A stretch of DNA of 43,873 nucleotides, from assembly GCA_007695115.1 (NCBI GenBank), contig REEK01000108.1, positions 1 to 43,873 of the forward strand, written 5' to 3'. A program made the translations under genes and the position numbers. Shown piece after piece: positions 13,903 to 22,383 of this stretch. The notes beneath the pieces are model-generated. The model was given only the letters and a program-made list of their open reading frames with translations. It searched no databases and was not told the DNA's origin. Position 1 is the stretch's first letter. Each line of letters starts with the position of its first letter. This DNA is from Sphaerobacteraceae bacterium. Its GTDB lineage: Bacteria; Chloroflexota; Chloroflexia; Thermomicrobiales; Thermomicrobiaceae.

Positions 13903-14862
13903 ATGGCCGATCTTGGAATCATGATCGAATCTCAGGATGGAACCAATTGGGATCGCTGGAACAAGCTCATCGATGCCTGCCACAATGGCGGCCTCAACGG
14001 CCTCTGGCGCTCGGATCACCTGTTCTCGCTGATGGGGGACACCACCCGCGATGCGCTGGCACTGGTGCCGGCTCTGACGGCGGTTGCGCTGAAGAGTGAC
14101 CGGCTGGAGTTCGGCGCGGTGGTCTGTCCGATGACGTTCAGGCACCCGGTGATGCTGGCCCGTGAGGCCGTAGCACTGGATACGCTCTCCAACGGACGCT
14201 ATACGCTGGGCATCGGTGCTGGCTGGAACGAGCGCGAGCACGATGCCTTCGGGTTCGATCTCCTGCCGCTCAAGACCCGTATGGACCGTATGGAAGAGTC
14301 GCTGGAAGTCATCAGCCGGCTGCACACCGGCGAAGTGGTCAGCTACAAGGGTGAGCAGTTCGAGCTGAAGGATGCCCAGATGCGTCCGAAGCCAACCCGT
14401 GGCAACAAGGTGCCGATCATGATCGGTGGCAGCGGCAAGCAGCGCACGCTGAATATGGTTGCCCGCTTTGCTGACGAGTGGAACTGCGTCAACGGTGACA
14501 AAGCGAGCTATGACGAGCTCAATCAGGTACTGGACGGCCACTGCAAGAATGCTGGTCGCGATCCATCGACGATCAAGCGCTCGATCATGGGCGGCTTCAT
14601 CATCGGACGCAACGAGAACGAGATGCTCGATCGGGCGAAGAAGCTCAAGGAGATCTCCCCGGGCAACGCCGAATTCACGCCACAGCAGATTATCGATCGT
14701 GCCCGTGATCGCTGGGGCTTCGCCGGTACGCCGGAAGAGGTCATCGAAGCGATCAAGGCACTGGAGAGCAAGGGCGTCTCACGCTTCATGCTCCAGATGC
14801 TCGATCAGGACGATCTGGACGCGGTTGAGCTGATCTCGAAGGAAGTCAACCCGCACGTGTAG
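13903..14862 (+). CDS. LLM-class flavin/F420-dependent oxidoreductase
   Basis: The 319-residue protein has the luciferase-like monooxygenase TIM barrel. Landmarks are LWRSDHLF early, FGAVVCPMTFRHPVMLAREAVALD, NGRYTLGIGAGWNEREHDAFG (the strongest family signature), VPIMIGGSGKQRTL and the C-terminal WGFAGTPEEVIEAI. The GAGWN segment and length favour F420-dependent members, but FMN use cannot be excluded. A TTGACA lies at 13841-13846, without a good -10, and the ribosome site is ggagg. It heads a three-gene same-strand cluster with a VOC protein and a triple-RidA protein, suggesting a shared catabolic job. Confidence 0.87.
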   Translation: MADLGIMIESQDGTNWDRWNKLIDACHNGGLNGLWRSDHLFSLMGDTTRDALALVPALTAVALKSDRLEFGAVVCPMTFRHPVMLAREAVALDTLSNGRYTLGIGAGWNEREHDAFGFDLLPLKTRMDRMEESLEVISRLHTGEVVSYKGEQFELKDAQMRPKPTRGNKVPIMIGGSGKQRTLNMVARFADEWNCVNGDKASYDELNQVLDGHCKNAGRDPSTIKRSIMGGFIIGRNENEMLDRAKKLKEISPGNAEFTPQQIIDRARDRWGFAGTPEEVIEAIKALESKGVSRFMLQMLDQDDLDAVELISKEVNPHV

Positions 14863-14905: not shown

Positions 14906-15295
14906 ATGGATCACGTCTACGTTCGCTATTTCGTTACTGATGCCGAACGCTCGACCCGCTTCTATCGGGAAAAGCTCGGGTTCGAGGTTGTCATGAACCC
15001 GAATCCGGGCTTTTCCCTTCTGGAGCGCGGGCCGCTCCGGCTGATGCTCAATGCCTCGGGCGGCCGCGGAGCCGGGCAACCATCGAACAGCGGAGAGACC
15101 CCGGAACCAGGCGGCTGGAACCGGTTTCAGATTCGTGTCGATAATCTCGACGCTGAGATTGCACGGATTCAGGAATCTGGTGGCACGTTTTACGATGAGG
15201 TTATCGAAAGTATGGGTGGCCGCCAGATTCTACTGACCGATCCGGACGGCAATCTTATCGAGTTGTTCGAATCACGAACTGAGCCGAATCGTTGA
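14906..15295 (+). CDS. VOC-family (glyoxalase/dioxygenase-fold) protein
   Basis: The 129-residue protein has two beta-alpha-beta-beta-beta modules. The first begins DHVYVRYFVTDAERSTRFYREKLGFEV and the second ends LLTDPDGNLIELFE, the hallmark of the vicinal-oxygen-chelate fold. The terminal Glu and the His near the N-terminus are in the usual metal-ligand positions. Members include glyoxalases, extradiol dioxygenases and resistance proteins, and the sequence does not decide among them. The LLM gene ends 43 bp upstream and the triple-RidA gene begins 49 bp downstream. Confidence 0.85.
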   Translation: MDHVYVRYFVTDAERSTRFYREKLGFEVVMNPNPGFSLLERGPLRLMLNASGGRGAGQPSNSGETPEPGGWNRFQIRVDNLDAEIARIQESGGTFYDEVIESMGGRQILLTDPDGNLIELFESRTEPNR

Positions 15296-15344: not shown

Positions 15345-16499
15345 ATGAGCAACCGTCGATTCATCAACCCACCGGACGCCGGGCCCACCCACGGCCGCTA
15401 CAGCAAAGCGGTGGTCAGTGGAAACCGGGTGTTTATGGCCGGTCAGGTGCCGGTTGATATGGGTGGCCATGTTTCCGGGGCCGGGGACATCGAGATTCAG
15501 ACCAGCCAGACACTCCGGAATGTTGGCCGGGTGCTGGAAGAGTCGGGAGCCTCGTTCGGCGATATGACGATGACCCGCGTCTATCCGGCCAGCGTTGCCT
15601 GGCGGAACCAGATCGGTGATGCTCGTCGCGCGGCTGGCCTGGCCAGCGCTACCAGCACACTGGCGGTCATCGAGAGTCTCGCCAACCCGTCGCTGTTGCT
15701 GGAAATCTCCGGGATTGCGCATATTGGCGGCGAGCGATCGACATTTTCGCCGGATACCGTCCACGAGACGCCGGGAACCTATACCCATGGGGTACAGGTG
15801 GATGACACGCTTTACATTGCCGGTCAGATTGCACTCGATCCGGACGGGAACGTCGTCGGAAAGGGTGATGCCGAGGCGCAGGCCGATCAGGCGGTCCTCA
15901 ACCTGCTCCGGGTGCTCGAAGCGGCCGGTGGCTCGCCGGACGACATCGTATATACGTGTCTTTACATCACACACCCCTCATATGTGGATGCCATTCGCAC
16001 CGCCCGAAGAAAATATGGATTGACCGGCTGCCCCAACACGCTGATCGTTGTCCCGAGTCTGGCGACGGCAGATTTTCTCGTCGAGATCGAGGCAATTGTC
16101 GTTCTGGGCACCGAAAAGACGGTCATCAAGCCACCCGATGTCCACTCGGTATCGGGACGCTATGAGCATGCGGTCGTCGCCGGCGATACCGTCTACATGG
16201 CCGGGCAGATTGCACTCGATCCAGACGGCAACCTGGTTGGCCTCGGCGATAGCGAGGCCCAGGCCCGGCAGCTGTATCACAACATGGAGCGGGTGCTGGC
16301 TGCGGCTGGGGGCACCCTGGACGACATCGTGTCTGCCACCGTCTACATGACTAACCTCCAGCATCGAGAGGGCCACAACAAGGTCCGCGGAGAGATCGGT
16401 CTGACGACGCCGGCCAACACGTCGGTCGTCATCTCGGCCCTGGCACAGCCAGAGTTTCTGCTCGAAGTTGAAGCCATCGCCGTGCTTGGCGATCGGTAG
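15345..16499 (+). CDS. Three-domain RidA-family fusion protein lacking the catalytic Arg
   Basis: The 384-residue protein consists of three consecutive RidA (YjgF/YER057c/UK114) domains, roughly 5-128, 133-255 and 258-384. Each has the G-R-Y opening or its equivalent, V-x-x-AGQ-x-x-x-D and LLLEISGI / LVEIEAIVV / LLEVEAIAV near the end. Standard RidA is about 130 residues and forms trimers with active sites at subunit interfaces; it hydrolyses reactive enamines/imines. The substrate-binding arginine of active RidA is replaced by Ser104, Asn231 and Asn358, exactly 127 residues apart, which confirms the internal repeat. Domains 2 and 3 are the most alike (AGQIALDPDGN in both). This could be a monomeric pseudo-trimer with altered chemistry. 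It is the last gene of the LLM-VOC cluster. Confidence 0.85.
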   Translation: MSNRRFINPPDAGPTHGRYSKAVVSGNRVFMAGQVPVDMGGHVSGAGDIEIQTSQTLRNVGRVLEESGASFGDMTMTRVYPASVAWRNQIGDARRAAGLASATSTLAVIESLANPSLLLEISGIAHIGGERSTFSPDTVHETPGTYTHGVQVDDTLYIAGQIALDPDGNVVGKGDAEAQADQAVLNLLRVLEAAGGSPDDIVYTCLYITHPSYVDAIRTARRKYGLTGCPNTLIVVPSLATADFLVEIEAIVVLGTEKTVIKPPDVHSVSGRYEHAVVAGDTVYMAGQIALDPDGNLVGLGDSEAQARQLYHNMERVLAAAGGTLDDIVSATVYMTNLQHREGHNKVRGEIGLTTPANTSVVISALAQPEFLLEVEAIAVLGDR

Positions 16500-19942: not shown

Positions 19943-21067
19943 ATGGCCGAAGTAATGAACAAGGAACTGAGCCGACGCGGATTCATGATGCGAGCAGCTG
20001 CTCTTGGACTGGCCGTTCCGGCTGTTGGCGCACTGTTGAGCGCTTGCGATGGCGACGAAGAAGAAGAGGCGGTATCAGCCGCCGCCAGCAGCGACGATGA
20101 TCACGATGCTGACGACCATGTTGCAGCTGCCGACGATGACGGCCCATCCGCAGATGCCGTTCGCGTCGCCAAGGATCCGGCCGACATTCCTGGCCCGATC
20201 GACCGGAGCGAGCCGGAGCATGTCCTGGTCGAACTTGAGACGGTCGAGCTCGATGGCTGGATCGATGAAGAGACGACATTCCGGTTCTGGACGTTCAACG
20301 GAACGGTCCCCGGCCCGATGGTCCGAGTCCGCGAGGGTGACACGGTTGAAGTCCGGCTGAAGAATGCCGATGACAGCCAGCACCCGCACAACATTGATCT
20401 GCACTCGGTGATCGGCCCCGGTGGCGGCGGATACGTCACCACGGTAGCACCCGGAGAAGAGGCCGCATTCGAATTCAAGGCGCTTTATCCAGGGGTGTAC
20501 ATCTACCACTGCGCAGTGCCACATATCCCGACCCACGTCGGACACGGCATGTACGGGCTGATCGTGGTCGAGCCAGAGGAAGGACTGCCGCCGGTCGATA
20601 AGGAGTTCTACATCGTCCAGGGTGACTTCTACACTGATCTCCGCCCGAACCAGGGTGGGCACGCCAACTGGGACGGCGACGCCCAGTTCCGTGAGCAGCC
20701 GAACTACGTGCTCTTCAACGGAATGTTTGCCGGCGCAACTGGTGAGCACACCATGACGGCCGAAGTCGGCGATCGGATTCGACTCTTCGTCGGCAACGGT
20801 GGGCCGAACCTGATTTCGTCCTTCCACATGATCGGTGGGTTGATCGACGTCCTGCATCGAGAAGGCCAGGCCGAAGCGACCCACAACGTGGAGACGACGC
20901 TGATTCCCGCCGGTGGATCGTCCTGGATGGAGTTCCAGATGGATGTCCCGGGCACCTACGTTCTGGTGGATCACTCGCTGGGACGAGCGATCGACAAAGG
21001 TGCGATCGCAACGATCGAGGTCGAAGGTCCAGACAACCCGGAGATCTTCAACCCGCTCGATGACTAG
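19943..21067 (+). CDS. nirK: Copper-containing nitrite reductase (NirK type)
   Basis: The 374-residue two-cupredoxin enzyme should reduce nitrite to nitric oxide outside the membrane. All expected residues align: type 1 Cu His149, Cys190, His198 and Met203; type 2 Cu His154, His189 and His344; catalytic Asp152 (HPHNIDLH) and His295 (SSFHMIGG). These last two distinguish NirK from other multicopper oxidases. The N-terminus combines a twin-arginine motif (LSRRGFMM) with a lipobox (LLSAC, Cys35), implying Tat export and lipid anchoring. An Asp/Glu/Ala linker with two His (38-70) follows. The ribosome site is ggagga. It has its own terminator but is followed on the same strand by copper-delivery genes. 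Confidence 0.88.
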   Translation: MAEVMNKELSRRGFMMRAAALGLAVPAVGALLSACDGDEEEEAVSAAASSDDDHDADDHVAAADDDGPSADAVRVAKDPADIPGPIDRSEPEHVLVELETVELDGWIDEETTFRFWTFNGTVPGPMVRVREGDTVEVRLKNADDSQHPHNIDLHSVIGPGGGGYVTTVAPGEEAAFEFKALYPGVYIYHCAVPHIPTHVGHGMYGLIVVEPEEGLPPVDKEFYIVQGDFYTDLRPNQGGHANWDGDAQFREQPNYVLFNGMFAGATGEHTMTAEVGDRIRLFVGNGGPNLISSFHMIGGLIDVLHREGQAEATHNVETTLIPAGGSSWMEFQMDVPGTYVLVDHSLGRAIDKGAIATIEVEGPDNPEIFNPLDD

Positions 21068-21094
21068 TTGACAGAACGCTCAGGTCTCGCGGCG

Positions 21095-21140
21095 AACCGG
21101 GTTCACGGACGAACAATCCGCTGAACCCGGTTTGTTCTGG
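21095..21140 (+). terminator. Intrinsic terminator after nirK
   Basis: AACCGGGTTCA (21095-21105) pairs with TGAACCCGGTT (21122-21132). An inner CGGA/TCCG pairing lengthens the stem with one bulge, and ttgttct follows. It separates nirK from the PCuAC-SCO unit, possibly as an attenuating rather than absolute stop. Confidence 0.75.
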
Positions 21141-21205
21141 GCCAGAGCCTGAATAGATGATCACCGGCAACTGGTCATTGCCGATGCCGAAAGGCGGCAC
21201 GAACG

Positions 21206-21727
21206 ATGAAACGAAAACAACAGATGTTCCGACTGACAATTACCGGAATCTTCCTGACCCTGCCACTGCTCGGTGGGTGCGCATCGTTAGAACGAGAGGC
21301 TCAGGACGTTGCTGGAGCCTCCGAGCGCACGTTGACAATCCAGAATGTGTGGGCGCGTAGCGAGGGCTCTGGACAGAACAGCGCGGTGTACCTCGAGATC
21401 GTCAATCGCGGTGAGGTGGACGATCAGCTGATCGCCGCCGAAACCGACGTTGCTGGCGCAACCGAGGTTCACGAAGTGGTGTCCCGTGACAATGTTATGC
21501 GGATGCAGGAGGTCGAACAGGTCGAGATTCCTGCCGGGGAAACGGTCAATCTCGAGCCAGGTGGCTATCATCTTATGCTCTTCGGGCTCGTGGATGATCT
21601 GGACGCGGGCGACGAGTTCGATCTGGTCCTGACGTTCGATCAAGCCGGAGAGATCACCGTTACCGCAGAGGTTCGGCATCACACGCCAGATCACGGATAC
21701 CGTGATCCCGGACAGGGAGGCCTCTGA
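21206..21727 (+). CDS. PCuAC-type periplasmic copper chaperone
   Basis: The 173-residue lipoprotein (lipobox LLGGC, Cys25) has the PCuAC Cu(I)-binding motif with exact spacing: His89, ten residues, Met100, 21 residues, His122-x-Met124. These proteins carry Cu(I) in the periplasm and donate it to SCO proteins or directly to cupredoxin sites, classically the CuA centre of cytochrome oxidase. Here the neighbours are nirK and SCO, with no oxidase gene. An additional His-rich C-terminus (RHHTPDHGY) may hold a second copper. The gene overlaps the SCO start by one base (TGATG). Confidence 0.88.
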   Translation: MKRKQQMFRLTITGIFLTLPLLGGCASLEREAQDVAGASERTLTIQNVWARSEGSGQNSAVYLEIVNRGEVDDQLIAAETDVAGATEVHEVVSRDNVMRMQEVEQVEIPAGETVNLEPGGYHLMLFGLVDDLDAGDEFDLVLTFDQAGEITVTAEVRHHTPDHGYRDPGQGGL

Positions 21728-22383
21728 TGCCACGCCTGGTTCAGAAGACACTCGTTGCGTTGCTTATAGCGTTGGTCCCGGTCCTGTTGCTGACCGCGTG
21801 CAGTTCACCGTTCGGTGGTAATGAGGCTGACGAGGTTGCATCGGCTGGCGGTGCGGGCAGTTCCAGTGAGGTACCGGGTGTACTGCTGGAGGATGCCGCA
21901 CCAGCGCCGCAATTTACGCTGACCACGCAGGATGGCTCGCCGTACTCGCTCTCGGAACTCGACGGCAAGATCACGGCGATCTTCTTCGGATATACCGGAT
22001 GCCCGGATATCTGCCCGATGACGCTCGGCTACATGGCGCAAGCCACTGAAGCGCTGGGTGACGATGCCGGGCAGGTCGAGTACCTCCTGATCACGGTCGA
22101 TCCAGAACGAGACGATCCAGAACGCCTGGCGCAGTACATAAGCCGCGTGGATGCGCCACTGACGGCCCTCACCGGAAGCCAGGCAGAACTGGAGCCGGTC
22201 TGGGATGACTACGACATCGTGGTGGAGCGTCGAGAGCGAGATGGTGACGGCTACTTCGTCGATCATTCGGCGCAGATCTGGATCATCGATCAGCACGGGG
22301 ATCTGGTCATGTTCATGCCAATGGGGGCCGATGGCGACGACCTGACCGCGGCGCTGCGCTGGCTGCTGGATCAGGAGGCCTGA
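21727..22383 (+). CDS. SCO1/SenC family copper-insertion protein
   Basis: The 218-residue lipoprotein (LLTAC, Cys25) has a thioredoxin-fold SCO domain. The Cu-binding CxxxC is at Cys92/Cys96 (GYTGCPDICPMTL) and the third ligand is His180 (FVDHSAQIWIID). VEYLLITVDPERDDP is the other conserved segment. SCO proteins deliver copper and/or reduce target cysteines in CuA-type sites. Translational coupling to PCuAC through TGATG indicates joint function. With nirK 660 bp upstream on the same strand, the likely client is the nitrite reductase or the blue-copper protein downstream; this is inference. Confidence 0.9.
   Translation: MPRLVQKTLVALLIALVPVLLLTACSSPFGGNEADEVASAGGAGSSSEVPGVLLEDAAPAPQFTLTTQDGSPYSLSELDGKITAIFFGYTGCPDICPMTLGYMAQATEALGDDAGQVEYLLITVDPERDDPERLAQYISRVDAPLTALTGSQAELEPVWDDYDIVVERRERDGDGYFVDHSAQIWIIDQHGDLVMFMPMGADGDDLTAALRWLLDQEA

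Follow-up and report, generated by a model that had tools for sequence, protein, structure and literature searches.

Proteins in which three RidA domains are fused were described by Niehaus et al. in 2015, who named them '3x-RidA' and suggested that each is a trimer joined covalently (PMC4433059). According to the same source, Rid4-7 lack the arginine of the active site, and in about 10% of RidA proteins this position is Ser. In TdcF, the pocket consists of seven residues (Tyr17, Gly31, Asn56, Asn88, Arg105, Pro114 and Glu120), and the side chain of Asn88 contacts Arg105 (PMC1884159). Replacement of the equivalent Tyr and Glu in S. enterica RidA had little effect, and replacement of the Arg almost abolished activity (PMC4433059). 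Arg-less variants of RidA, RutC and plant RidA were nearly or fully inactive (PMC4433059; PMC8113886), and Arg-less Y3550 of Y. pestis was without RidA function (PMC7221256). What Arg105-less Rid proteins do is recognised as a gap in knowledge.

Pseudo-trimeric relatives have been described as well. In FBXO22, the FIST domain consists of three repeats arranged with pseudo-threefold symmetry; for the folds of chorismatases and of cyanuric acid hydrolases, an evolutionary origin from YjgF monomers has been considered possible (PMC11185555).

An earlier note on the DNA analysed here had named a triple form that is common and already characterised as something that would refute it, and this largely applies. 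Three-domain Rids have been known since 2015 (PMC4433059), and more were found in Chloroflexota and Mesorhizobium. The form is thus known, while biochemical characterisation of any 3x protein was not found in the literature that could be searched. The triple RidA architecture is not new, the protein encoded here is a further 3x-Rid, and Arg105-less Rids are a large known class.

The triple Rid gene and its conservation

The window, that is the whole stretch of 43,873 nucleotides that was analysed, is a contig of a Thermomicrobiaceae genome (98.5% complete, 186 contigs). Residue positions were mapped to E. coli RidA/TdcF numbering. In the E. coli RidA sequence used for numbering, Tyr17, Gly31, Asn56, Asn88, Arg105, Pro114 and Glu120 match the published TdcF numbering. 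The features under study are the following.

13903..14862, plus strand: F420-type LLM (luciferase-like) oxidoreductase of 319 aa; scores 230.6 bits against TIGR03560, slightly short of the cut-off of 231.4
14906..15295, plus strand: VOC/glyoxalase-like protein, 129 aa; PF00903
15345..16499, plus strand: 3x-Rid gene, complete ORF, 384 aa, three PF01042 stretches; predicted one-chain pseudo-trimer
15345..15728, plus strand: Rid domain 1 (D1, aa 1-128); Y19, G33, N59, R78 (position 75), G91 (position 88), R94 (position 91), S104 (position 105), E120
15729..16112, plus strand: Rid domain 2 (D2, aa 129-256); Y146, G160, N186, R218 (position 88), R221 (position 91), N231 (position 105; Ser in orthologues), E247
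16113..16496, plus strand: Rid domain 3 (D3, aa 257-384); Y273, G287, N313, N345 (position 88), R348 (position 91), N358 (position 105), E374

The 3x-Rid ORF starts with ATG at 15345 and ends with TAG at 16497-16499. Pfam model PF01042 matched the protein in three stretches with 213.9 bits (cut-off 27.3), and TIGR00004 reached 171.4 against a cut-off of 106.25, a score summed over the three domains. When the protein was compared with itself, identity was 42% at a lag of 127 residues and at most 15% at all other lags from 90 to 199. The 127-residue period is real and strict, as the earlier note had described it, and the protein has three Rid domains fused in tandem, as in 3x-RidA. Identity between the domains was 36% for D1-D2, 39% for D1-D3 and 50% for D2-D3.

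Each of the five genomes of the genus had the triple gene: the window genome itself, three others at 98, 82 and 72% identity, and a fifth with an 80% fragment; two of the five copies are interrupted by contig ends. It was found in none of the 16 other genomes of the family. Compared with genome G012, the window gene yielded dN 0.007 and dS 0.23 (dN/dS about 0.03), and compared with G013, dN 0.13 and dS 1.3 (dN/dS about 0.10). The triple gene is under strong purifying selection.

As the source is a contig of a metagenome-assembled genome, it was considered whether the triple gene is an artefact of assembly or annotation, or a tandem duplication that has degenerated. Such an origin is extremely improbable and was ruled out, as was a pseudogene, because the same triple gene occurs in five genomes of the genus and its dN/dS is low; in addition, its paralogous domains are just 36-50% identical.

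Pocket residues, candidate arginines and ancestry

The Arg105 column is occupied by S104, N231 and N358, so that the arginine of archetypal RidA is missing in every copy, as had been noted before. Asn at position 231 is found in the window only, the remaining four genomes of the genus having Ser, and G011 carries Asn instead of Ser at position 104. Among the sites that were readable, Arg was present at the Arg105-equivalent positions in none of the orthologues.

In contrast to Arg105, the equivalents of Tyr17, Gly31, Asn56 and Glu120 are retained in all three domains, in the complete orthologues. Position 88 is occupied by Gly91, Arg218 and Asn345, leaving an Asn88 equivalent in D3 only, and position 114, Pro in TdcF, is Ala in all three domains. 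Other arginines stand near these sites. All three domains carry Arg at helix position 91 (R94, R221, R348). In D1, strand position 75 is additionally Arg (Arg78) and position 88 is Gly; in D2, the Asn88-Arg105 contact pair of TdcF is exactly reversed as Arg218/Asn231; in D3, the position 91 arginine is the sole candidate replacement. R78, R94, R218, R221 and R348 were unchanged in G012 and G013.

In view of TdcF, position 88 borders the pocket, because Asn88 touches Arg105 there (PMC1884159). Positions 75 and 91 may border it as well. Position 91 lies one helical turn past 88, and position 75 shares a strand with position 73, two residues away. Position 73 corresponds to Glu88 of AmnE when counted from the Arg, and Glu88 is among the listed cleft residues of AmnE.

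These arginines bear on a reading in which the protein is an ordinary imine/enamine deaminase acting on imino acids, with Arg91 (in all domains, helped by position 88 in D2) or Arg75 (in D1) replacing Arg105 as carboxylate anchor. A total of 178 Rid domains from Chloroflexota were scored at E. coli positions 75, 88, 91 and 105, of which 136 were without Arg105 and 42 had it. Arg91 was observed in 96 of the 136 Arg105-less domains and in 1 of the 42 Arg105 domains, which mostly have Tyr91 (Fisher p 1.7e-16, on raw counts). Arg at positions 75, 88 and 105 was mutually exclusive, with no doubles in the 178 domains compared to about 16 expected on shuffling. Both patterns, the conservation of the five arginines and the location of position 88 speak for such a relocation.

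On the tree, however, changes of Arg105 number just about three, and two independent contrasts were supported. The pattern is therefore mainly a clade signature and no proof of compensation, and as a repeated compensation the swap was not significant once ancestry was respected. D3, moreover, has the position 91 arginine alone, and the Arg105-less proteins tested so far were inactive. A relocated carboxylate anchor in the window protein is accordingly unlikely. Proposed precedents for an Arg-less deaminase were also rejected: AmnE keeps Arg117, and DadY and RutC both keep the Arg. A broader version of this reading is quite doubtful. It would hold that in the Arg105-less clade the catalytic Arg moved and was not lost, with Arg91, or 88 or 75, reaching the same cleft; many presumed non-deaminases, the window pseudo-trimer included, would then be imine/enamine hydrolases of altered specificity, and the fused form would unite three versions of the relocated site.

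The earlier note had predicted from the loss of Arg a function other than enamine/imine hydrolysis. In its favour, the absence of Arg105 has been linked to the absence of deaminase activity in published work. Conserved arginines at 91, 88 and 75, apparently by the pocket, count against it and touch the very case that the note had named as refuting it, an Arg entering the clefts from another position. The prediction was weakened, not refuted, and the step from a lost Arg to no imine chemistry is plausible but unproven.

Ancestry was examined with a tree of 72 domains, from which positions 75, 88, 91 and 105 were excluded. Arg105-less domains stood apart from Arg105 RidA with support of 99/98, although one domain of G358 with Arg at 105 fell within the Arg-less clade. 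Because the Arg105-less domains form a separate clade, Arg105 was most likely absent before triplication; the tree indicates that the Arg was not lost three times but that the window domains belong to the Arg105-less clade. D1 was the most divergent window domain. D2 and D3 were closest to each other, forming sister groups in one tree (SH-aLRT 80) and left without a resolved order in the 72-domain tree. A single clade of the three window domains was not rejected (p-AU 0.43). The 3x forms lay apart on the tree, yet one clade uniting the window type with that of the other Chloroflexota was not rejected either (p-AU 0.42).

A row of Rid genes was observed in genome G325 (contig C17, L067 1168-3229), where a 251-aa frame containing two Rid domains comes after three single-domain Rid frames. 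This row possibly illustrates an intermediate step on the way from tandem genes to fused multi-Rid chains.

Predicted fold, gene neighbourhood and possible function

AlphaFold2 modelling of the whole 384-aa chain with a 32-row alignment yielded a pLDDT of 93.4 and a pTM of 0.92, and the packing of the three domains is therefore confidently predicted. Following Foldseek and VIA-align comparison of this model, chorismatases came first, as full-length matches. The crystal structures 4bps, 5ag3 and 5a3k gave Z 28-28.6 over about 286 residues with rmsd 2.6-2.8; the top structure, 4bps, reached Z 28.6 over 286 residues with rmsd 2.6, so that the model has the overall chorismatase fold. The FIST domain of FBXO22 followed with Z of about 16, and cyanuric acid hydrolase ranked lower still (Z 11). 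When each predicted domain was compared alone with single RidA chains, Z was 12-13, as expected of the RidA alpha/beta fold.

The one-piece pseudo-trimer proposed in the earlier note is well supported by the confidence of the model, and the full-length matches to pseudo-trimer folds give it precedents. The chain alone very probably folds into the barrel-shaped trimer that is otherwise made by single RidA subunits, with three inter-domain clefts. The clefts differ, as had also been suggested: in D1, D2 and D3, position 75 is Arg, Cys and Thr, position 88 is Gly, Arg and Asn, and position 105 is Ser, Asn and Asn. In these residues the three are no longer equivalent, as fusion would leave each cleft free to drift.

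An enzyme that works like a chorismatase through one of its three clefts would fit the best full-length fold match. This is very unlikely, as identity to chorismatases is about 13%, TIGR04444 gave no match to the window protein at E 0.001, and no shikimate-pathway neighbours were present among the genes scanned.

Another alternative is a non-catalytic ligand-binding or scaffold protein (a sensor, a chaperone or a partner of the LLM enzyme) in which the pocket is kept and the chemistry is not. The FIST domain of FBXO22 shares the pseudo-trimer fold, is without an obvious ligand pocket and serves protein binding (PMC11185555). Arg105 is absent in all domains of the window protein, and its three pockets diverged from one another under purifying selection. 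On the other hand, equivalents of Glu120, Tyr17 and Gly31 are present in every cleft, and a pure scaffold would not need them. This alternative is somewhat unlikely.

The gene neighbourhood is operon-like. The 3x-Rid gene is directly preceded on its strand by the LLM and VOC genes, with gaps of 43 bp (LLM-VOC) and 49 bp (VOC-3x-Rid). The VOC and 3x-Rid genes are probably in the same operon, and all three genes are probably co-transcribed. The window genome (G000), G012 and G013 share the order LLM-VOC-3xRid; in G011, both the LLM gene and the Rid gene stop at the edge of a contig. Other genomes of the family encode LLM homologues (about 50% identity), and none of these had a Rid or VOC neighbour.

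An LLM gene also adjoins single-domain R75-type Arg105-less Rids from the same taxonomic order, at 10 of 16 loci, compared to 0 of 26 Arg105 Rid loci. Since these Rids are related to each other, this is one conserved association, not ten. Their LLMs resemble F420-dependent Mer and belong to another LLM subfamily than the LLM beside 3x-Rid, so the two neighbourhoods may be unrelated. Such a pair is found in the window genome itself (contig C92, L002 1264-2828), where a Mer-like F420 LLM oxidoreductase comes directly after a single-domain Rid with Ser105 and Arg75; pairs of this type were also seen in related genera and, within the order, in other families.

Other genes were observed on the downstream side. 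A secreted-looking GerMN-type protein (PF10646; 16811-18109 in the window) lies downstream in five of five genomes of the genus, and a second long protein with a segment related to it was seen at L010 and L075. Further on, at 19943-22383, a multicopper oxidase-type protein, a PCuAC copper chaperone and SCO1/SenC are encoded in a row as a copper cluster.

Taken jointly, the best explanation is a 3x-Rid pseudo-trimer of the Arg105-less clade that works with the LLM and VOC proteins, and it is put forward tentatively, at somewhat less than even confidence. Three Rid domains of this clade form one chain in which each predicted cleft keeps its Tyr17, Gly31, Asn56 and Glu120 equivalents, Asn88 persists only in D3, and the carboxylate-binding Arg105 has given way to Ser or Asn. 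Its most likely function, put forward with still more reserve, would be to bind or hydrolyse a reactive product of oxidation by the F420-type LLM enzyme (an imine, an enamine or a related compound) and not a plain alpha-imino acid. A product without the alpha-imino-acid carboxylate is favoured because the protein has kept Glu120 and Tyr17 but not the residue that binds this carboxylate. That Glu and Tyr are kept says little about catalysis, since their replacement matters little in S. enterica RidA. As the genome contains a separate canonical Arg105 RidA, the 3x-Rid protein need not be the housekeeping deaminase. With three differently furnished, linked clefts in one predictedly stable chain and a candidate partner enzyme encoded next to it, 3x-Rid is a convenient system for studying pocket function and whether an arginine elsewhere can take over from Arg105.

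Comparison with known Rid systems

Like the 3x-RidA proteins already described, such as EF_0115 of Enterococcus faecalis V583 (PMC4433059), the window protein has three tandem fused Rid domains and is presumed to be a covalently linked trimer. The window protein is without Arg105; EF_0115 was compared by its published description.

Other 3x-Rid proteins were found in Chloroflexota (G196, G358 and G367; L061-L063) and on Mesorhizobium plasmids (WP_140764101.1 and WP_140523185.1). They share with the window protein the three domains, a length of 381-405 aa and Arg91 in most domains, and nearly all their domains are without Arg105 (one Arg in 15 domain rows). In contrast, they stand on a separate branch of the tree and have partly lost Tyr17 and Glu120, all of which are kept in the window. 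The Mesorhizobium genes (399 aa; L210 3911-5110 and L211 2610-3809) are directly followed by a gene of the Xaa-Pro peptidase family, with IclR and TetR regulators and amino-acid ABC transporter genes in the surroundings. Further high-coverage tblastn matches on plasmids were not counted as triples, being single domains of about 375 bp each that the query matched three times.

Single-domain Arg105-less Rids (Ser-type RidA, Rid4-7 and Y. pestis Y3550) likewise carry another residue in place of Arg105; in the Chloroflexota sample this was mostly Ser or Asn, often with Arg91. Unlike the window protein, they consist of one domain and are presumably homotrimers.

Chorismatases (FkbO/Hyg5/XanB2), cyanuric acid hydrolase and the FIST domain resemble the window protein in having three RidA-like repeats in one chain with pseudo-threefold packing. 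Their sequence identity to it is just 5-14%, and their catalytic residues are other ones.

The RutC/RutA system is comparable in that a Rid protein is encoded with an LLM-type oxidoreductase, and the favoured reading of the window locus would follow the same logic with another substrate. RutC, however, has Arg104 where the window protein has no Arg; the RutC model TIGR03610 gave the window protein 130.3 bits against a cut-off of 169.1, and the window LLM is TIGR03560-like, not RutA.
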